From a virus: a stretch of 29,427 bases of DNA. Below are positions 18,387 through 28,692 of the stretch, in pieces (positions within the stretch are counted from its first letter, which is position 1; the number at the start of each line of letters is the position of its first letter). A program made the translations under genes and the position numbers. The stretch spans positions 1-29,427 of the IMG/VR virus record IMGVR_UViG_3300025138_000228; one strand, given 5' to 3'. Below the pieces are notes generated by a model that searched no databases, was not told where the DNA came from, and saw nothing but the letters and a program-made list of their open reading frames with translations.

Positions 18387-18848
18387 ATGTCAACAAACAG
18401 TTTAGTTTCTAGAAAAAAAATATTAGAGTTAGAAAACGTATTAATTAATAACACAGATGGTATTAATATAATTAGTGATAAAGGAAATATTGTTAGGTGT
18501 GAACAGTTTCCTTTGAAACATTCGTTTGCTGATGGAATATATATTAGGCAAATGAGTATGAAAAAAGATTCTGTTGTTGTTGGTGCTATACACAATCACT
18601 TACATGCTTGGTTTTTATTAACAGGAAAGATTCTTGTTATAACAGAGGAAACAGAGGAAGAGTTTGTATCGCCTTGTTACGTTGTGTCAACGCCAGGTGT
18701 TAAAAGAGTTATATGTGCAATTGAAGAAAGTATATTTGTAAATATACACAAAAACCCCTCAAACACACAAGACTTAAATAAATTAGAAGCTGAAATAGTT
18801 TCTAAAAACTATAAAGAATATGAAAAATATATTAACAAAAAAAAATAG
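18387..18848 (+). CDS. cupin-fold protein of the virion module
   Basis: The 153-aa product has a compact beta-barrel pattern. FADGIYIRQMSMKKDSVVVGAI is followed by HNHLHAWFLLTGKILVITEE (H69, H71, H73), then VSPCYVVSTPGVKRVICAIEESIFVNIHKN (H121). This is the cupin layout: a first histidine cluster, a Gly turn, then a second motif with Pro-Gly and a late His. The family I recall is widespread in tailed phages as a short protein of unknown role. Whether it binds metal or catalyses anything is not shown. It follows a 41-base gap with an AT-only leader, so it may start its own transcript. The next gene follows after three bases in the same frame. The last 25 residues are a Lys/Glu-rich helix. Confidence 0.65.
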   Translation: MSTNSLVSRKKILELENVLINNTDGINIISDKGNIVRCEQFPLKHSFADGIYIRQMSMKKDSVVVGAIHNHLHAWFLLTGKILVITEETEEEFVSPCYVVSTPGVKRVICAIEESIFVNIHKNPSNTQDLNKLEAEIVSKNYKEYEKYINKKK

Positions 18849-19502: not shown

Positions 19503-21308
19503 ATGGCAAAGAAATTTGAAAAACACATGATGTACGGTGATGGTAAGTCAGAAATGGCCGACACTAATGCGGAGCACTTGAAATTAAAGAAAAAAGGTTG
19601 GGGTCATAAAAAACCAAAAACACCTAGTCCTTTGCAAATAAATCAAACTTTAATAGAAAACTATAAAGGAGTAAACAAATACACTAGAACTGGTGGTGGA
19701 ACAAGAACTCCTGAAATTGATTTTAGCGATGCTAATAAAATGATGGCTAGAACTGCTGTTGGTGGACTGTCTAAGGGTATCATAAACCCTAAACAAAAAA
19801 AGAAAAAAAAGAAAGATAAAAAAAATGATACTAAAAATACTATAAACAACGATAATTTTGATAGTGATAACATAGAAAATTTTGTTGAAGATGAAAATGA
19901 AAATAACGAAAGCAACGACTCAGATGGTCTTTTTGATATGCCTGAAGAAGAAGTTATTGACTATAGTGTCCCTACAGATACTGATAATAAAACAGATGTT
20001 GTTGAAAAAACCAATGTAGATAGTAAAAAATCAAAAGATAAAAAATCTAAAAACAAGTATAAAGTAACAAAAAAAGGAAAATTGTTTTCAAAAAAGCATA
20101 AATTTAGGTATGATGAAAACACTAGAAAAAGATTAAAACAAGAAGGTAGGTTAGACGAGGCAAACGAAATTTTATACAGAGTTAAAAAACCTGGACTGTT
20201 CAATGATAAAACAATGAACAAAGATGAGTTTAATACTTTTAAAGAAAATGAAAATGTAATTAGAAGAGGTAATACACACTCAAACCGCGTTGAAGGGAAT
20301 TATTTTTCACCTCTTGAAGCTCAGTCTTCTAGCTATTTTGGAAGAAGGTTTACTAACAAAGGAAAAACTCCATTGTTTTTTCAAACACCTAAACCACAAG
20401 ATTACGAAGACAAGTTATTAGCTATGCAAATGCAAAACCCAAACATAGAGCAAGATGTTGACAAGTACATATCAAACTCTTCACTTGTTGGTGATGAAAA
20501 ATTAGACATTTTAGGAAGTCAAGCTAATTCAAAAGTTTTTGAATATGCTAAAAGCATAAAAGACGACGCGGCAATGAGAATTGAGCAAGAAGGTGGTGCT
20601 GGTGGTAGAGTTATAAATGACTCAATAAACACCTTAAGAGGTTTGACTCAAAAAGTAAACAACTTAATAGATAAAAAAGCAGAGTGGATTGAAAACAACG
20701 GTGGAGGTGAATCTACAAGACGTAACTTTTCAAAAGGATCTTCTGGAAAAAACAAGTTTGTACAAAACGCAATTTTTTCTGAAAGAAATGATTTGTTTCA
20801 AATAGTCATGCCAGAAATAGAAGTAAACGCAGATGGAAGTTCTACTTTTGCTGATATTGTATTTGATTTTGATGGCGAGCAAGTTAAATCTTCCGACATG
20901 TTTACTAATGTATTTTTAAAACCAGAACAAAAATTTGCTGACTTTAGAAAACAAGCTGTTAAACTTGCTAGCGACGCAAGAGAAAGAAAACCTTTTAACG
21001 AGTATCACACTAGTGTAGCTGTTGACAGTTTATTAGATTCAAAAGAAAATATTTTGTCTTTTGCTTGGGATAATTTTGCAGGACCTTCTTTTGTAGAGCA
21101 ATACACAGATGTAAACCAAAACGAAGATCCTACATGGATGGATGTTGATAGTCCTAATTTTAATGAAAATAGACTTAAAGATGAAGTTTCCTTTTGGTTA
21201 AAGCAAAAACTTAAGACAGAGCATAAAATGAGCATGGTAAACGAGCAAATTGACACTTCTGAGCAGCTTACACCAAAACAATTGTTGGAAAAATATTCAA
21301 TATCTTAA
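19503..21308 (+). CDS. putative internal virion protein with charged low-complexity region
   Basis: The 601-aa protein begins KKFEKHMMYGDGKSEMADTNAEHLKLKKKGWGHKKP (residues 2-39). I recall this start motif from proteins next to the internal-protein genes of marine and flavobacterial phages. Residues about 97-107 are nearly all Lys, encoded by an A-tract-rich stretch. Residues 110-160 are Asn/Asp/Glu-rich, and 165-200 are Lys/Ser-rich, so about 100 residues are probably disordered. The remainder (about 260-590) is helical and Glu/Lys/Asn-rich, with VMPEIEVNADGSSTFADIVFDFDG at about 430. It has no enzyme signature. It sits between the gp14-like gene and the giant gene, suggesting a head core or ejected-protein role. 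Confidence 0.5.
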   Translation: MAKKFEKHMMYGDGKSEMADTNAEHLKLKKKGWGHKKPKTPSPLQINQTLIENYKGVNKYTRTGGGTRTPEIDFSDANKMMARTAVGGLSKGIINPKQKKKKKKDKKNDTKNTINNDNFDSDNIENFVEDENENNESNDSDGLFDMPEEEVIDYSVPTDTDNKTDVVEKTNVDSKKSKDKKSKNKYKVTKKGKLFSKKHKFRYDENTRKRLKQEGRLDEANEILYRVKKPGLFNDKTMNKDEFNTFKENENVIRRGNTHSNRVEGNYFSPLEAQSSSYFGRRFTNKGKTPLFFQTPKPQDYEDKLLAMQMQNPNIEQDVDKYISNSSLVGDEKLDILGSQANSKVFEYAKSIKDDAAMRIEQEGGAGGRVINDSINTLRGLTQKVNNLIDKKAEWIENNGGGESTRRNFSKGSSGKNKFVQNAIFSERNDLFQIVMPEIEVNADGSSTFADIVFDFDGEQVKSSDMFTNVFLKPEQKFADFRKQAVKLASDARERKPFNEYHTSVAVDSLLDSKENILSFAWDNFAGPSFVEQYTDVNQNEDPTWMDVDSPNFNENRLKDEVSFWLKQKLKTEHKMSMVNEQIDTSEQLTPKQLLEKYSIS

Positions 21309-21309
21309 T

Positions 21310-24300
21310 ATGGCGGAAAAAATAGAGGAAAATTTATTAGAAAAAAATTTAACACCACAGCAAATAAAACTAGCTGAGGTTATTGCTAATATGGAAAGAG
21401 ATAATGTTGAGCAAAGCGTTATACAACAAAATATTCCTGCTATTAAAAAAGAAATAGAACAAACTACAAGCAATACTGATTATGTTTATGGTGCTCCTGT
21501 ACCAAAAGAAATAAAACCTTTTTTTACTAACGAAAAATTTAATAATGAAGCTAACGAAGAAGAAGTTGTTGAAGAAGTTGTTGAAGAAGAAAAAACAATT
21601 AAAGAAAAAATTGGAAGTTTTAATGTTTATAAAGGTACAACTTTAGCAGATTTATTAAGCGATCCTGTTGAACAAGAGGTTAACGATGATTTTAAAACAT
21701 TACCAGTTGCTGAGCCAGATAACACAAGAGTTGTTTTAGGGCCAGAAATAGAAGTTGTTGAAGTATTTGATGACTCACAATATTGGGATGAAAATACAAA
21801 CACTGTCAAGTCAGATGTTGATGAGTTTTTTGATGATGGTGAGTTTACAGAAGAAGAAGAAACAGAAGAGCTTGAGGAAGAAGAAAAAGAAGAAGAAGAA
21901 GAAGAAGTAAATGAAGAAAAAAAGTTTATGGGTAATAATTTTTTCTTTAAAATGCTTAGAATAGGTGTTGATGCTACAAAAGAAAGTGAAATAAAAGAAA
22001 GTCTTGAAGCTGTTTCAACTATATGGAAAAACATACCTTTAAGTTTTAAGCAATCATATTATACAACAAAACTTTTAACAAACAAACAAATATCTGAGAT
22101 TACTAAAGGTTCTTCAGATTACGATAATATAGAGAATTTAATAAAAATGGATATTGAAGGTGGTAATTTAGGTTTTTCCACCGAAAACCCATTTGGAATA
22201 GATAATTCAACTTTTGACGCTGACGGAGGTGTTCATTGGGTTTCACCGCAAGGAGAAACTGTAGATTTAAACGTGATGCGTAGACTTGATAAAGAGTCCG
22301 TAGGAAGAAACATTGAAGACTTGCAAAGTTTATCAAACAAAAGAATAGAAAACGGGTGGAAGGTTGTTTACAAAAGATCTGGAAAAGAAGTTGGTTACAA
22401 GTATAGAGCTTGGCAGTTAAGTCAATTTGAAAAAATTATTGAATTAGAAGCTAAAAAAATAAAACCAAAAGTTTCTTTTGTTCAAGGTTACAAACAAGAA
22501 GATGCTTCAATGTTTATAGGTTCTGTGTTTTTAGCAATATCAAGTCTTTTAGAAACAATGCTTCCAGCTATAGCAACAAGAGGAGTTTCTTTGTACCCTC
22601 AAATAGTTACACCAAAATACGTTGAGTATAATAGAGAAAAAGCTAGATCGTTATACCCTGAGTTATCAGAGATGGATGCAATTGAAAAATTAATAAGATC
22701 AGAACAAGAAGAGTTTATAACTCCTTTAGTTTTAGGTTTTGCTGAGTTAGCTTTAGAAAAAATAGGTATAACAGGTATATCAAACTCTATAAAGTTAATG
22801 AAACCTGGAGGTTTAAGACTTTTAACCACTATAACAACTTCTGGTAGTAGAGAGGGTATAACAGAGTGGGCTCAATTAGGTACAACAATAATAAACAGAG
22901 AAGTAGCTAGATTAGAAGGTGAGCAAGAAAAAAGAATAAAAGATGGTTTAGAAAGAACTATGAGTAATTCTCAAGTTTTTGAAGAAGCAGGTAAAATAGC
23001 TTTAACCGCAATGTGTAGCGAAGAAGGTTTGGAAAACTTTTTATTAGGATTTGTTGGTGGTACTTTTGCTAGTTCTACTGGAGCAATGATAAATAGAGCT
23101 TTAAGAATGGATCCAGCTAGTATTAACTTTGTTAATTCTAAAATTTCAGAAGTAGCTAGATTAAAATCTATTATTAGCGAAAGTATATCCCCTAAAGTAA
23201 AAGCTCTTTTACAGAAAAAAATAGACAAAATAATTAAAGAGTTAACTGACCATGTAAACGTTTCTAAAAAGTTACAGGCTTACTTAACAAAAGATGAAAA
23301 AACAAATTTATTAAGCTTTTTAAACGAATACAGCCGTTTGTCGGCTAAAGCTATAGACGAAAAAATGGATTATTTTTTAAATTTTGAAATTAATGGCAAA
23401 ACAATAGCTGAACTTGCAAAAGAAGAAAATTTATCTTTAATGGGTTATTTAGAGAAATACGAGCCTCAAATGGCTAAAGATTTAAAATTAATATTACAAA
23501 ATATTGAAGAAGAAAAACTAGCTATACATAATCAAATAAATGACGTTAAAGATCGTGCGAACCAAAGAATGATAGAAGATGGTTTGCAAGGTGTTGAAAA
23601 TATAGTTAAATCAGAAGGTGGTAAAATTGTAGTTTTTAATACAGAACAAGAATTAAACGATCACATAGAAAAAAACAGAGGTAAAAAAGGTTATACTTCT
23701 GAAGAAATAAACAAAATGAGAAAAGCTGATGGTTTTCAAATTGGCAACATTATGTTTATCAATAAACACATAGCTATAAACGTTGGCGCTATATCTGTTG
23801 CTCAACACGAAGCTGCTCATTTTCTTTTTGGAAAACACTTTCGCGACTCTCAAGGTAATATAACAGCAGAAGGTTTAGTTGTTATAAATAACTTTAAAAA
23901 CAGTTTAAGCGTAAAAGCTTACAACAGTATATTACAAAGATTAAAAGGTGCCGGGTATAACTTATCTGATTTAAACACTCAAGAAGAGTTTTTGACAATG
24001 TACATCGACGGTATTATTAAAGGTGATTTCAAAGCAAGTAGTAAGAGTATGAGAATTTTAGGCAAAGCTCTTATGGGTATAATGAAATCAAAAGGTTATG
24101 AAAATATCAGATTTGATAACTGGCAAGATATTCAGCTTTGGCTTGAAAACTACATAAAACAAAGGAATACTAGTTCTGATCCAATAAAAAGAAAAACACC
24201 AACAGAAGACAAGTCAAACACTAGTTTTTCGTTAACAGATTTAAAACCAAAAACAAATAGTTTTGGCAAAACAGACCAAACAACTTTTAATAATTCTGGT

Positions 24301-27300
24301 GTTAATAAAGTTGTTGAATACTTGTATGGTAAGCTTGATGGTCTTATAATGAAGTACGTAAGCTCAGAAGTAAAAAGACTAGATGATTTTAAGCAAGAAG
24401 ACTATCTACAAGATACTTATATACAGTTAATTAAACATATTAAAACGTTTAAAGTTGCAGAATACAATGAAGATGGTACAAGAAAGTTAAATCAAGACGG
24501 TGAACAAATAGGTAATGATGATCTTTTTGGTTTTATAGTAGCTTACGCTAGGCTTAAAGGTTTAGATGTTACTAAAAAGCTTGATTTTAATTTTGTACAA
24601 AGGTTAGATGACGAAAACTCATTTATTGACGACGTTGCTGCTGATGATGTTTTAGATTTAGACTTAGCTATTGAAGAAGATGTTACTTTTTCAAAGCTAA
24701 GAAAAATACTAGGCATAGAAAAAGGTAGTGCACTTTACAAAAAAATAATTGAAGCTGTAAAAACTATAATACCTGGAGAAATTTCAAGTGTAAATTCACC
24801 AGAGTTTAAAGCAATACTTGCTAAGTATTTTCAAGATAAGTTTTTTGATGATATAAAAAGAATTATAGGGGGAAGCCCTGGCAAGCAAAGTTATAAAGAT
24901 TTTATAATAAACAACGCAAAAGCTTTGTATGATGTGTTTTCTCAACAAGTGTTTAACAAATCTTTTCAAGATTTTATAATACAAACAGAAACAAACATAA
25001 GCCCTACAAGAGTTGACGAAGCTATAAGAGAGGGTTTACTACCTAAAGGCACTTCAAGAACTTCGGGTCCTGATCTTTTTAAAAAACTACCTTGGAACGA
25101 AGACACACAAACAAAATGGGTTGATAATTTTTTAAACCCAACGAAAGGTAGACCAGCTTCAAAACAAAACTCTTTAATAGAAGCACTTTCTCTTATTATA
25201 GGTTTTGATGCTGTCATGGAAACTATATCTTCAAAAGAGTTTAAAGAAACAAACGATATCGCTTTGTCAACAATAGCAACTATTGGCTTAAAAATAGACA
25301 GAGGGTTAAACGTTAGGTTTAGCAATACAACTCTTAACATAAACAACTTTGACGCACAAAAAGCCGGTGACATGGTTAGATATGTTAGGGGTTTTATTCC
25401 TTACGAAGTCTCTCCTGAAGATTTAACTGTAGAGTTAAACGCAGAGTTTCCAAACGCTTCTAAAGAAACAATTGATTTTGTTGTTCTTATGTATGACAAA
25501 GCTTTTATAGCTAATAGTGAAAGCACGCGTTTTAAAGTTCAAGTTAATAATGATCCAGATATTAGTGATGCTACAAAGAAAAAAATTAAAGACGTAAAAA
25601 ATCTTAGATATGATGAACAAGCATTAGAAGATCTTTACCTTCAAGCTTTTACAATAGCAACTACTTTAGGTCCTAACGTTATGAAAATTATAGGTTATGA
25701 CTGGCTTGGTTTTACTAGCAGAGTAATGGACTCGGCAAAGTTAAAAGAAAGTGGATTAAGCGGTAAGTATTATGAAAAACTAGAAGATTTAAAAGCAGCT
25801 GTTGAAAACTCTGAAAATATAACACTTCCTAAAGGATTAAATCTTAGCAAAATAAGATTGATGAATAAAAAGTATTCTATTTTTAAAGCTGTTGAAAAAA
25901 TACTTTTTGACGGTGATAGCAAGATCGACGGTAGCAATATTAAATGGAAAAAAGCTGAATTAGCAAAACTATCTGTACAAATTAAAGAAGCTGGTAAAGC
26001 TAATATTATGTTAGCAAAGCTTTTGGCTAAAACATTGATAACTACTAGCAATGACGATGCTTCTATAATACAATTATTGCAAACACAAACAAGTATTGTT
26101 TCTGGGTTTAGAGCATTAACAACTTTAGATCTTATAACTGTACTAGAAGGATCACAAAAGCCAGGTGAGTCACATCCTTACTTTCAAATGGAGCTTGATA
26201 TAGCTAAAAAAGCAGTGCATGGGCCAAAATACAAAATTAAAGAACTGCGTGGAAAACCAAAATATCCTACAGAAGAACTTGCTATTGCTGCTGCTATAAC
26301 GGCTTTGGGTACAAAAGGAGAACACGCAGCTGCAAACGCAAATACTATGGCTAAAATTGCAAGCTTACGAGCAAAATACTTAAAAGATAAAAGTATTGAT
26401 TTAGACGGTGAGTTAGATAAAATATTTGCAAACCACGGCCAAATACATACTACAAAAGGTGTTACTAACATTATTGATGATGAAGGAGGTGCTACTAACG
26501 CGATGGACTGGCTTAGAGCAATGCTTACGGAGTTAAGAGATGATATGTTTAGTTCAGATGGTAAAACCGCTGAAGATGTTATTATAGAAAAACAAGACAA
26601 CAATGTTAGATTTTCTTTGTCTGTTGATTTTAACAAAATACTAGAACAAAACGAAGGCATTAAAGCAGAGGCTACTTACTCTCCTGCTCAAGGACAAATA
26701 CAAGGTAGGTCAATAGTTAGGTTTTGGGATTATGTTTACCCTCCTTCAGCTTACGACTTAGAGTTGTTTTTATATAGAATTATTGGAAAAGGAGAGCTTG
26801 GAGAAAAACAAATGAAGTTTTTTAAAGCTGCTATACTAGATCCTTACGATAGAGCTTATCAAAAAATAAACAAAGAAGCCCAAAGAGTTAAATCAGAGTA
26901 TAAAGCTTTGTTAAAAAAATTACCTTTAGTTAAAAAATCATTAAACAAAACTGTTAAAGGTTCAAAATTTACTATTGACCAAGCTATAAGAGTTGCTATA
27001 TGGACCGACATGGGCGTTAACATGCAAGAGTTAGGTTTATCTAAAAGAGATCAAAAAATTTTAGTTGATGCTGTTAATTCTGACCAAGAATTACTTGATT
27101 TTAAAAACTCTCTTAAAGATTTAAATCTTAATAATGGTGAATACGTTTTACCTACTGAATATTGGACTGTAGAAAATATAGCATATGATCTTGACTCGGG
27201 AGTTAACAAAACAAGTAGAGCAAAGTTTTTGGCTGAATGGAAAGAAAACGTTGAACAAATATTTTCTTCAGAAAATAAAAATAAGTTAAGAACTATTTAT

Positions 27301-28692
27301 GGAAATAATTTTGTAGATTCTTTAAATGATATGCTTTACAGAATGGAGTTTGGTAGAGGAAAATCAACTTCATCTAGAATAGAAACAGCTTGGCTTAACT
27401 GGGTTAACAACTCTGTAGGAGCTATTATGTTTTTCAACATGCGTTCTGCAGTTCTTCAAACAATATCCTCTTTTAACTACGTTAATTGGACTGATAACAA
27501 CCCCGCTAAAGCGGCTTTAGCTTTTGCTAACTTTCCTCAGTTTTTAAAAGACTTTGGAATGATATTTAATTCTGATTATTTAAAAGAAAGAAGATCTGGA
27601 AACAGGCAAGATGTTAACATGAACGAGCTTACTGTTTATTTAAAAGGTAAGCAAAACAAAGCAAAAGCTATAATAGCTTTTTTACTAGAAAAAGGATTTG
27701 CACCCACACAAATAGCTGATAGCTTTGCAATATCTTCAGGTGGTGCTATTTTTTATAGAAATAGAGTTAAAACATATATAAAAGAAGGTTTTTCCCAAGA
27801 AGCTGCTGAGCAAAAAGCATTTAATGATTTTGAAAATAAAACAGAAAAAGGACAACAATCTTCAAGACCAGATCTTATATCAGAACAACAAGCTGGTGGT
27901 TTAGGTAAATTATTATTAGCTTTTAAAAATACTCCTATGCAGTATAATAGGTTGATGATAAAAGCTATATTAGATATAAAAAACAAAAGAGGTAGTACAA
28001 GGGAAAATTTATCTAAAATAGCTTATTACGGTTTTATTCAAAATGTTATATTTGGAGCTTTGCAATCAGCTTTATTTGCCGCGTTGGGAGATGAAGATGA
28101 GTGGGATACAAAAACAGAAAGAATTGCTAATGGCATGATAGATACTATACTTAACGGTTTGGGTTTAACTGGAGCAGTCGCTGTTACGTTAAAAAATGCA
28201 TATCTTACTTATAGGAAGCAAAATGAAAAAGGTTGGAATGCAGATCACACTTACACTATACTTCAGTTTGCTAATTTATCACCAACAATAGGCTCTAAGC
28301 TTAGAAAACTATACGGATCTATAACAACAGAAAAATATAATAGAAAAGCTATTGAAGAGATGGGTTTTAGTATAGAAAACCCTTTGTTTAATTCTTTTGC
28401 TAGTTTATGCTCCGCTCTTACAAACATACCTACGGATAGAATGGTTCAGAAAATTCAAAACATTATATTAGCTTCAGACTCAGAAACAGAAGCAATGAAT
28501 AAGATTGGTTTACTTATGGGTTGGAATCCTTGGGATCTTAACATAGAAACAAAAGCAAAAAAAGTTAAAACAAAGTTAAAAGAAGAGGAAAAAGCTAAGA
28601 AAAAACAATGCACTGCTATTAAAAGTAAAGGTGGTAGATGTAATAATAAAACAACTAATAAATCAGGTCTTTGTTATGCTCACATCAAATAA
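21310..28692 (+). CDS. giant large-polyvalent-type virion protein with zincin motif
   Basis: The protein is 2460 aa. I chose ATG 21310, not the upstream in-frame ATG 21250, because it lies one base after the previous stop and gives the typical MAEK start. In order: an acidic region (Glu-rich at 181-205); a hydrophobic stretch at 401-420; REGITEW and a Gly-rich hydrophobic patch (about 575-595); helical coils (620-760); a zincin-like site H833-E-A-A-H837 with candidate third ligand E892/E893 in NTQEEF; FSL motifs at 973 and 1768; a sigma region 2-like helix (about 1023-1044). A conserved C-terminal part (1790-2270) contains VGAIMFFNMRSAVLQTISSF, PTQIADSFAISSGG and LLAFKNTPMQYNRLM. A Cys/His tail ends the protein (C2434, C2444, C2455, H2458). 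The C-terminal part matches giant proteins I recall from marine phages. It is probably ejected with the DNA; activity is unproven. Confidence 0.75.
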   Translation: MAEKIEENLLEKNLTPQQIKLAEVIANMERDNVEQSVIQQNIPAIKKEIEQTTSNTDYVYGAPVPKEIKPFFTNEKFNNEANEEEVVEEVVEEEKTIKEKIGSFNVYKGTTLADLLSDPVEQEVNDDFKTLPVAEPDNTRVVLGPEIEVVEVFDDSQYWDENTNTVKSDVDEFFDDGEFTEEEETEELEEEEKEEEEEEVNEEKKFMGNNFFFKMLRIGVDATKESEIKESLEAVSTIWKNIPLSFKQSYYTTKLLTNKQISEITKGSSDYDNIENLIKMDIEGGNLGFSTENPFGIDNSTFDADGGVHWVSPQGETVDLNVMRRLDKESVGRNIEDLQSLSNKRIENGWKVVYKRSGKEVGYKYRAWQLSQFEKIIELEAKKIKPKVSFVQGYKQEDASMFIGSVFLAISSLLETMLPAIATRGVSLYPQIVTPKYVEYNREKARSLYPELSEMDAIEKLIRSEQEEFITPLVLGFAELALEKIGITGISNSIKLMKPGGLRLLTTITTSGSREGITEWAQLGTTIINREVARLEGEQEKRIKDGLERTMSNSQVFEEAGKIALTAMCSEEGLENFLLGFVGGTFASSTGAMINRALRMDPASINFVNSKISEVARLKSIISESISPKVKALLQKKIDKIIKELTDHVNVSKKLQAYLTKDEKTNLLSFLNEYSRLSAKAIDEKMDYFLNFEINGKTIAELAKEENLSLMGYLEKYEPQMAKDLKLILQNIEEEKLAIHNQINDVKDRANQRMIEDGLQGVENIVKSEGGKIVVFNTEQELNDHIEKNRGKKGYTSEEINKMRKADGFQIGNIMFINKHIAINVGAISVAQHEAAHFLFGKHFRDSQGNITAEGLVVINNFKNSLSVKAYNSILQRLKGAGYNLSDLNTQEEFLTMYIDGIIKGDFKASSKSMRILGKALMGIMKSKGYENIRFDNWQDIQLWLENYIKQRNTSSDPIKRKTPTEDKSNTSFSLTDLKPKTNSFGKTDQTTFNNSGVNKVVEYLYGKLDGLIMKYVSSEVKRLDDFKQEDYLQDTYIQLIKHIKTFKVAEYNEDGTRKLNQDGEQIGNDDLFGFIVAYARLKGLDVTKKLDFNFVQRLDDENSFIDDVAADDVLDLDLAIEEDVTFSKLRKILGIEKGSALYKKIIEAVKTIIPGEISSVNSPEFKAILAKYFQDKFFDDIKRIIGGSPGKQSYKDFIINNAKALYDVFSQQVFNKSFQDFIIQTETNISPTRVDEAIREGLLPKGTSRTSGPDLFKKLPWNEDTQTKWVDNFLNPTKGRPASKQNSLIEALSLIIGFDAVMETISSKEFKETNDIALSTIATIGLKIDRGLNVRFSNTTLNINNFDAQKAGDMVRYVRGFIPYEVSPEDLTVELNAEFPNASKETIDFVVLMYDKAFIANSESTRFKVQVNNDPDISDATKKKIKDVKNLRYDEQALEDLYLQAFTIATTLGPNVMKIIGYDWLGFTSRVMDSAKLKESGLSGKYYEKLEDLKAAVENSENITLPKGLNLSKIRLMNKKYSIFKAVEKILFDGDSKIDGSNIKWKKAELAKLSVQIKEAGKANIMLAKLLAKTLITTSNDDASIIQLLQTQTSIVSGFRALTTLDLITVLEGSQKPGESHPYFQMELDIAKKAVHGPKYKIKELRGKPKYPTEELAIAAAITALGTKGEHAAANANTMAKIASLRAKYLKDKSIDLDGELDKIFANHGQIHTTKGVTNIIDDEGGATNAMDWLRAMLTELRDDMFSSDGKTAEDVIIEKQDNNVRFSLSVDFNKILEQNEGIKAEATYSPAQGQIQGRSIVRFWDYVYPPSAYDLELFLYRIIGKGELGEKQMKFFKAAILDPYDRAYQKINKEAQRVKSEYKALLKKLPLVKKSLNKTVKGSKFTIDQAIRVAIWTDMGVNMQELGLSKRDQKILVDAVNSDQELLDFKNSLKDLNLNNGEYVLPTEYWTVENIAYDLDSGVNKTSRAKFLAEWKENVEQIFSSENKNKLRTIYGNNFVDSLNDMLYRMEFGRGKSTSSRIETAWLNWVNNSVGAIMFFNMRSAVLQTISSFNYVNWTDNNPAKAALAFANFPQFLKDFGMIFNSDYLKERRSGNRQDVNMNELTVYLKGKQNKAKAIIAFLLEKGFAPTQIADSFAISSGGAIFYRNRVKTYIKEGFSQEAAEQKAFNDFENKTEKGQQSSRPDLISEQQAGGLGKLLLAFKNTPMQYNRLMIKAILDIKNKRGSTRENLSKIAYYGFIQNVIFGALQSALFAALGDEDEWDTKTERIANGMIDTILNGLGLTGAVAVTLKNAYLTYRKQNEKGWNADHTYTILQFANLSPTIGSKLRKLYGSITTEKYNRKAIEEMGFSIENPLFNSFASLCSALTNIPTDRMVQKIQNIILASDSETEAMNKIGLLMGWNPWDLNIETKAKKVKTKLKEEEKAKKKQCTAIKSKGGRCNNKTTNKSGLCYAHIK

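Follow-up and report, generated by a model that had tools for sequence, protein, structure and literature searches.

A giant virion-type protein of Bacteroidota phages with a predicted gluzincin-type domain, a sigma-70 region-2-like module and a motif recurring at module seams

Among the domains of phage and plasmid polyvalent proteins, which include the N4 virion RNA polymerase, zincin-like peptidases occur most often (Iyer 2017, PMC5512222). The layout described for these peptidases comprises an N-terminal helix, a three-stranded sheet, a helix with the HEXXH motif and a helix with a Glu, and a widespread phage-type form carries a conserved Asp three residues after HEXXH (Iyer et al., PMC5512222). 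It has been proposed that the zincins of giant phage proteins process their own multidomain chain, and both outcomes occur for comparable domains, i.e. P1 DdrB is processed before packaging and the N4 virion RNA polymerase enters the particle as an uncut chain (PMC5512222). Since zincins in giant phage virion proteins are thus known and common, we do not follow an earlier, sequence-only reading of the locus analysed here, which had regarded a phage virion protein with a metalloprotease and without a cell-wall-lytic domain as unusual.

We analysed a 29.4-kb virus record (IMG/VR IMGVR_UViG_3300025138_000228, positions 1-29,427), hereafter referred to as the window, in which a run of virion genes encoding the terminase (phrog_6681), the portal (phrog_6547), the capsid and tail-type proteins is followed by a giant ORF (Table 1). 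The longest open frame extends from a TTG at 21250 to 28692 and encodes 2480 aa. The ATG at 21310, which results in 2460 aa, is the likelier start, because the TTG falls inside the upstream ORF, whose end at 21308 is located just before the ATG. Two residue numberings are used, one from the TTG (termed P0001) and one from the ATG, the latter corresponding to P0001 minus 20 (e.g. 853 becomes 833). Between the tail genes, a 153-aa ORF (18387-18848) reads like a small cupin-type protein, a putative assignment made from reading the sequence.

According to the terminase, no phage record is closer than that of MW202828, an uncultured podovirus (62% identity), and the other related records come from phages of Flavobacterium, Cellulophaga, Maribacter and Tenacibaculum. 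The giant genes of the relatives are annotated as "structural protein" (Cellulophaga phage phi38:1, Flavobacterium phage elemoA and Tenacibaculum phage Gundel_1) or "virion structural protein" (Cellulophaga phage phi13:2), and synteny together with this annotation in cultured relatives suggests that the giant protein is probably carried in the phage particle. The giant of Maribacter phage Panino is annotated as "tRNA methyltransferase" in its record, which we did not adopt.

Table 1 Features of the giant ORF in the window. The table indicates the feature, its position in the window, the strand and the basis of the assignment or remarks.
Feature	Position	Strand	Basis and remarks
Giant virion-type protein, 2460 aa from ATG	21310..28692	+	ORF list, translation, synteny with giant genes that have a structural annotation in cultured relatives
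Zincin (gluzincin-type) domain, predicted	23557..24162	+	P0001 residues 770-971; AF2 model, zincin fold matches, alignment
HEAAH, putative catalytic HExxH	23806..23820	+	Residues 833-837 from ATG, 853-857 in P0001; invariant in 63/63
Candidate third zinc ligand E893 from ATG (E913 in P0001)	23986..23988	+	Sole invariant column besides H, E, H
Seam motif 1, SNTSFSLTD	24214..24240	+	Where the zincin ends and the sigma-like module starts; score of 10.4 with the PSSM from a different seam; low pLDDT in both models
Sigma-70 region-2-like module	24232..24609	+	About P0001 995-1120; structural comparison, HMM scans, PDB profile match
Predicted helical continuation of sigma-like module	24682..25299	+	About P0001 1145-1350; AF2 pLDDT mostly above 90
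Seam motif 2, LNVRFSNTT	25306..25332	+	End of sigma-like module; aligns with FS[K/R] in relatives; pLDDT collapses
Seam motif 3, NNVRFSLSV	26599..26625	+	Start of conserved C-terminal block; PSSM score 12.4
Conserved C-terminal block, common to all relatives	26617..28620	+	About P0001 1790-2457; identity 42-62% to IMG/VR relatives, 40-64% in later search
C-terminal Cys/His tail CTAIKSKGGRCNNKTTNKSGLCYAH, possible zinc knuckle	28609..28683	+	Sequence; like pattern in 54/98 relatives

Direct searches were nearly blind, as neither the zincin region nor the whole protein matched any phage record, and among viral contigs the zincin region matched none and the whole protein one. Therefore, relatives were gathered via the capsid gene and then via the conserved C-terminal block. 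HEAAH is the only HExxH found by a sequence scan of the giant protein, and an HExxH is present in 18/18 giant relatives of the first set. In the second set, it was located upstream of the C-terminal block in 69 of 72 complete frames, with 0.8 motifs expected from composition; one of the exceptions (L165) is a split frame, the upstream half of which bears the motif. The merged set comprised 98 non-redundant giants, 95 of which carry HExxH upstream of the C-terminal block (94 of them once), amounting to 96 motifs versus 1.1 expected from composition, a comparison in which the Poisson values ignore the shared ancestry of the relatives. The giant of MW202828 (L133, 3859 aa) contains HEFGH twice, about 885 residues apart. 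Three complete giants of the window's own clade (L202, L260 and L270) are devoid of any HExxH, and L202 nevertheless retains the sigma-like module and the C-terminal block.

Over 63 zincin sequences, H853, E854, H857 and E913 (P0001) are the only invariant columns, and overlapping alignments of 20 and 54 sequences agree with this. An N at 838, a Y at 903 and a D/E at 920 are common without being invariant. Outside the four putative catalytic residues, which stay, identity within the domain has fallen to about 10-26%. The sequence-only reading had located the motif at H833-E834-A-A-H837 and had expected a third ligand at E892/E893 within a downstream NTQEEF, in the order of a gluzincin-type metallopeptidase. 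Indeed, we could validate both elements in the sequence, and the two His residues, the Glu between them and E893 are retained in 63/63 homologues, so that the proposed check for homologues lacking these residues turned out in favour of that reading. As to the third ligand, a conserved Glu candidate was found as anticipated, but because only the E893 column is invariant, the candidate is E893 and not E892.

Twelve relatives contain HExxH without being matched by the zincin profile, and six of these read HExxHxxD, a subtype which sits at the same place in the chain. The zincin subtype has thus been swapped while its position was kept, from which we argue that a protease is needed at that place. 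The giants of phi38:1, phi13:2 and Panino (L136, L137 and L220), which are encoded at the same gene position, have no HExxH, and the zincin is hence not universal in the wider group.

The AF2 model of the zincin domain, which is based on a 54-sequence alignment (the elemoA row was left out for structure prediction), has a mean pLDDT of 83.3, with values >90 in most of the core. It consists of a helix (2-19), three strands (23-27, 59-62 and 65-69) and two further helices, the first of which (81-95) contains HExxH and the later one (139-155) the Glu that is the candidate third ligand. The best solved matches in Foldseek are the M34 lethal factor (E 0.27) and selecase, a minigluzincin (E 0.63), both of which are weak, with PPEP and the collagenase peptidase domain ranking lower. 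A second structural aligner places chains of the M34 fold and PPEP at ranks 1-30 (Z 5.0-7.8), followed by PprI and collagenases further down, and gives selecase Z 2.2-2.8; such Z values alone are in the range which the aligner calls common, and it is the consistency of the families that carries the weight. PPEP-1/2/3 are among the best solved matches. The best viral fold matches are giant phage proteins, among them entries named "large polyvalent protein", a protein of a crAss-like type and the structural protein of elemoC. The likeness to M34 and PPEP is one of fold only, as the zincin region gave no Pfam or PDB profile match that would indicate membership by sequence, and no reliable library match was obtained for the domain with Pfam, PHROGs or a PDB-sequence profile search with the zincin alignment. 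Structure prediction of this region, which had been suggested as a check, thus returned a zincin layout with zincins as the best solved matches, and together with the invariant HExxH...E order it supports the proposed gluzincin-type domain. Sequence and prediction support a gluzincin-type metallopeptidase domain with a Glu as third ligand in the giant protein, and its conservation suggests that it would be an active protease.

Directly after the zincin follows a module, the likeness of which to sigma factors was first spotted by reading the sequence and then tested. When its model (pLDDT 79.6) was compared structurally with solved chains, sigma factors or their region 2 took every one of ranks 1-31, with Z values of 5.2-7.8, whereby the Z of 7-8 reached with this predicted model is in the range which the aligner calls common. 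The alignments cover 76-102 residues within model residues 1-141, and the first non-sigma chain appears at rank 32 (Z 5.2). Foldseek gave no confident match to the same model, and its ranking was uninformative. With a profile of 25 relatives, the best PDB sequence match was a sigma factor (E 1.4), and this was again the case with a profile of 95 homologous segments (E 0.0068). Among the Pfam families, Sigma70_r2 was matched by the largest number of these 95 segments (7 members, best E 0.0013), and in an NCBIfam scan the top five families by members were all sigma factors (best sigma70-ECF E 1.4e-4). The Sigma70_r2 match of the window itself is weak (E = 0.056, 13.7 bits versus a Pfam cut-off of 24), and its module reached no curated sequence cut-off in the Pfam and NCBIfam scans. 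To the part after region 2, where a region-4 helix-turn-helix would be located, no fold was assigned by Foldseek or structural comparison. Taken together, a region-2-like fold of the modelled module is well supported, and a function as a sigma factor may be inferred from it. No RNA polymerase family was detected in the full giant protein in Pfam and PHROGs scans.

In relatives, the region between the zincin and the C-terminal block can hold further modules, namely a HAD-like module (DxDxT) in 56/95 relatives and a P-loop kinase or Zeta-toxin-like module in 7/32 relatives by Pfam. Such modules were seen in the middle regions of giants just before the C-terminal block, e.g. in L155 and L166, and nine giants show both the HAD and the P-loop patterns, which might represent a kinase-plus-HAD combination. 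Both module types are absent from the giant of the window.

A short motif, x-F-S-[K/R/L], recurs at the seams between modules at 4-18 times the background and is at background level inside the modules. FSK was counted 97 times versus 26-51 times for other orderings of the same letters, and FSR 33 times versus 5-13; these strings recur downstream of the zincin and of the sigma-like module, ahead of the HAD module and where the C-terminal block begins. We trained a PSSM on one of these places alone, the end of the sigma-like module, and then applied it to the others. Among 60 giants, it matched 3.3, 4.8 and 9.8 times per 1000 residues at three other seams, compared with 0.6-1.0 elsewhere and 0.72 in shuffled sequences. 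At a stricter threshold, 95 giants contained 16 matches after the zincin (4.0 expected), 28 before the HAD module (1.5 expected) and 32 at the start of the C-terminal block (2.4 expected), and all these enrichment figures are inflated by shared ancestry. That a single motif turns up in one chain at several places which are not homologous is independent of shared ancestry. In other ORFs of the same phages, the PSSM was at background (0.42 versus 0.46 per 1000).

The residue following FS agrees more within one protein than between proteins (0.64 versus 0.52, p = 0.0095), and the first two seams of the window fall where model confidence collapses, as in linkers. All six Ser codons occur at the FS[K/R] sites, and this mixture favours selection on the protein over copying of DNA. 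Intragenic copying of the motif at the DNA level is for this reason not favoured, even though AGT is over-represented. A strong match at seam 1 was found in just 16/95 relatives, and 11 of 83 zincin-bearing giants are without a strong downstream seam match. The three zincin-less giants have 0, 1 and 2 matches, and they are too few and too mixed to tell whether motif and protease are lost together. Judged from the sequences, the motif could also reflect a linker preference or a recombination seam instead of a cut site. A literature search of open-licence papers revealed no description of predicted cut sites or of such seams.

The reading which we prefer, with a probability of about 0.5, is that a short-tailed Bacteroidota phage ejects the giant protein as a polyvalent polyprotein, the gluzincin of which would cut the seams of its own chain and thereby free cargo including a sigma-like factor. 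The protein would be ejected from the particle into the cell, H853, H857 and E913 would bind zinc, and E854 would activate water. Cleavage at x-F-S-[K/R/L/N] seams between the modules would take place during or after cell entry. The first cargo freed after the protease would be the sigma-70 region-2-like module, which could redirect the host RNA polymerase to early promoters of the phage, and the C-terminal block would stay with the delivery apparatus; in relatives, the slots between the zincin and this block would also supply HAD-like and P-loop kinase (Zeta-toxin-like) cargo.

Besides processing of the giant chain, the sequence-only reading had considered attack on a host factor after ejection and a relic. 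An attack on host factors in an uncut chain is the main rival, according to which the zincin would be an active effector protease that is ejected and cleaves host proteins, e.g. defence or transcription factors, while its own chain stays intact. A domain that strictly keeps its catalytic residues and is otherwise highly divergent is expected if the target changes, the predicted fold resembles effector-type proteases, and comparable zincins are effectors in other conflict systems (PMC5512222). The packaging of the N4 virion RNA polymerase as an uncut chain (PMC5512222) points in the same direction and counts against self-cutting. However, this explanation accounts neither for the recurring FS[K/R/L] motif at the seams of the same chain nor for the near-universal single copy of HExxH upstream of the cargo modules, and we consider it unlikely. 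It is because of the recurring seam motif that self-processing is favoured over cleavage of a host factor.

Self-processing could also be a matter of virion assembly, with the zincin acting as a maturation protease on virion proteins before packaging, and with the C-terminal block and the cargo packaged as separate chains. The conserved C-terminal block begins at a strong seam, and P1 DdrB with its comparable domain offers a precedent for processing before packaging (PMC5512222). But the prediction of seams is common to this explanation and to our preferred one, from which it differs by timing alone, and we regard it as quite improbable. Only a slim chance is given to a zinc site which conserves the fold without proteolysis, or to a structural part of the ejection apparatus. 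The N4 virion RNA polymerase is packaged only with the help of the region where its comparable domain lies (PMC5512222), yet the catalytic base E854 is no zinc ligand, and a zinc site of purely structural use would have no need for this residue, which is invariant in 63/63 sequences. Finally, the missing library match for the zincin domain of the window might suggest a chance HExxH or a decayed relic, which is hardly credible in view of the invariant catalytic residues and the confident fold. From the excess of HExxH over expectation among the 98 relatives we conclude that a chance match is refuted and that decay is very unlikely; a relic is also at odds with four retained catalytic residues in a domain that has drifted so far elsewhere.

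No description of a virion sigma factor was found among open-licence papers, and the neighbouring sigma-70 region-2-like module and the recurring seam motif, both missed by the sequence-only reading, therefore appear new. Extending the self-cutting reading to the whole clade is more tentative, and we treat the following as a doubtful proposal: these Bacteroidota phages would eject a self-cleaving polyprotein, in which a zincin and an F-S-[K/R/L] seam code free interchangeable cargo, among it a sigma factor carried in the virion, which captures the host RNA polymerase before any phage gene is expressed. Phages would exchange the protease subtype and the cargo with one another but keep the seam code and the C-terminal delivery block. 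The large natural alignment provides concrete candidate cut sites and fragments, which makes a self-cutting polyprotein directly testable by expression.

Compared with the polyvalent proteins (PMC5512222), the protein of the window is likewise a giant multidomain phage protein, which by synteny is probably encoded among virion genes, the helix and strand layout of its predicted zincin is the same, and the HExxHxxD form is present in some relatives. Several unrelated effector-type domains in one chain, as in polyvalent proteins, were also found, i.e. the zincin and the sigma-2-like module predicted in the window and the HAD-like and P-loop kinase/Zeta-toxin modules in relatives. In contrast, the text of that paper mentions neither sigma nor a recurring cleavage-like seam motif. 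No Pfam match above the cut-off was obtained for the window protein, and no polyvalent-associated model was among the listed matches of the relatives. The M34 and PPEP-type gluzincins, i.e. the lethal-factor fold and the Pro-Pro endopeptidases, share the predicted fold and the HExxH...E order and provide the best solved matches, but the zincin of the window differs by having no sequence-level match to them and Z values under 8. The terminase-related phages phi38:1, phi13:2, Panino, Gundel_1 and elemoA have a giant gene within or next to the cluster of virion genes as well; the giants of Gundel_1 and elemoA bear HExxH like the window, whereas those of phi38:1, phi13:2 and Panino do not, and the conserved C-terminal block gave no profile match to any of these five giants.

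The Crassvirales cargo proteins (PMC10172136) are large proteins which short-tailed phages of Bacteroidota store in the virion and eject, as is proposed for the giant of the window, and they include transcription proteins, but they belong to a different phage lineage and the main text of the paper is without protease, cleavage or sigma. The N4 virion RNA polymerase (Schitoviridae; PMC12633501) is a giant virion protein of a short-tailed phage (about 3500 residues) that is ejected, as is proposed for the giant of the window. It combines a zincin-like domain containing HExxH with a C-terminal part that is large and helical, and it brings transcription machinery into the cell. In contrast to this chain, which is packaged uncut, the giant of the window has no detected RNA polymerase domain and instead a sigma-region-2-like module, which would need the host polymerase. 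If this module is real, the particles of these phages would contain a promoter-recognition factor of their own, and such a virion sigma factor would represent a different solution from that of N4 and the crAss-like phages, whose particles deliver an entire RNA polymerase.
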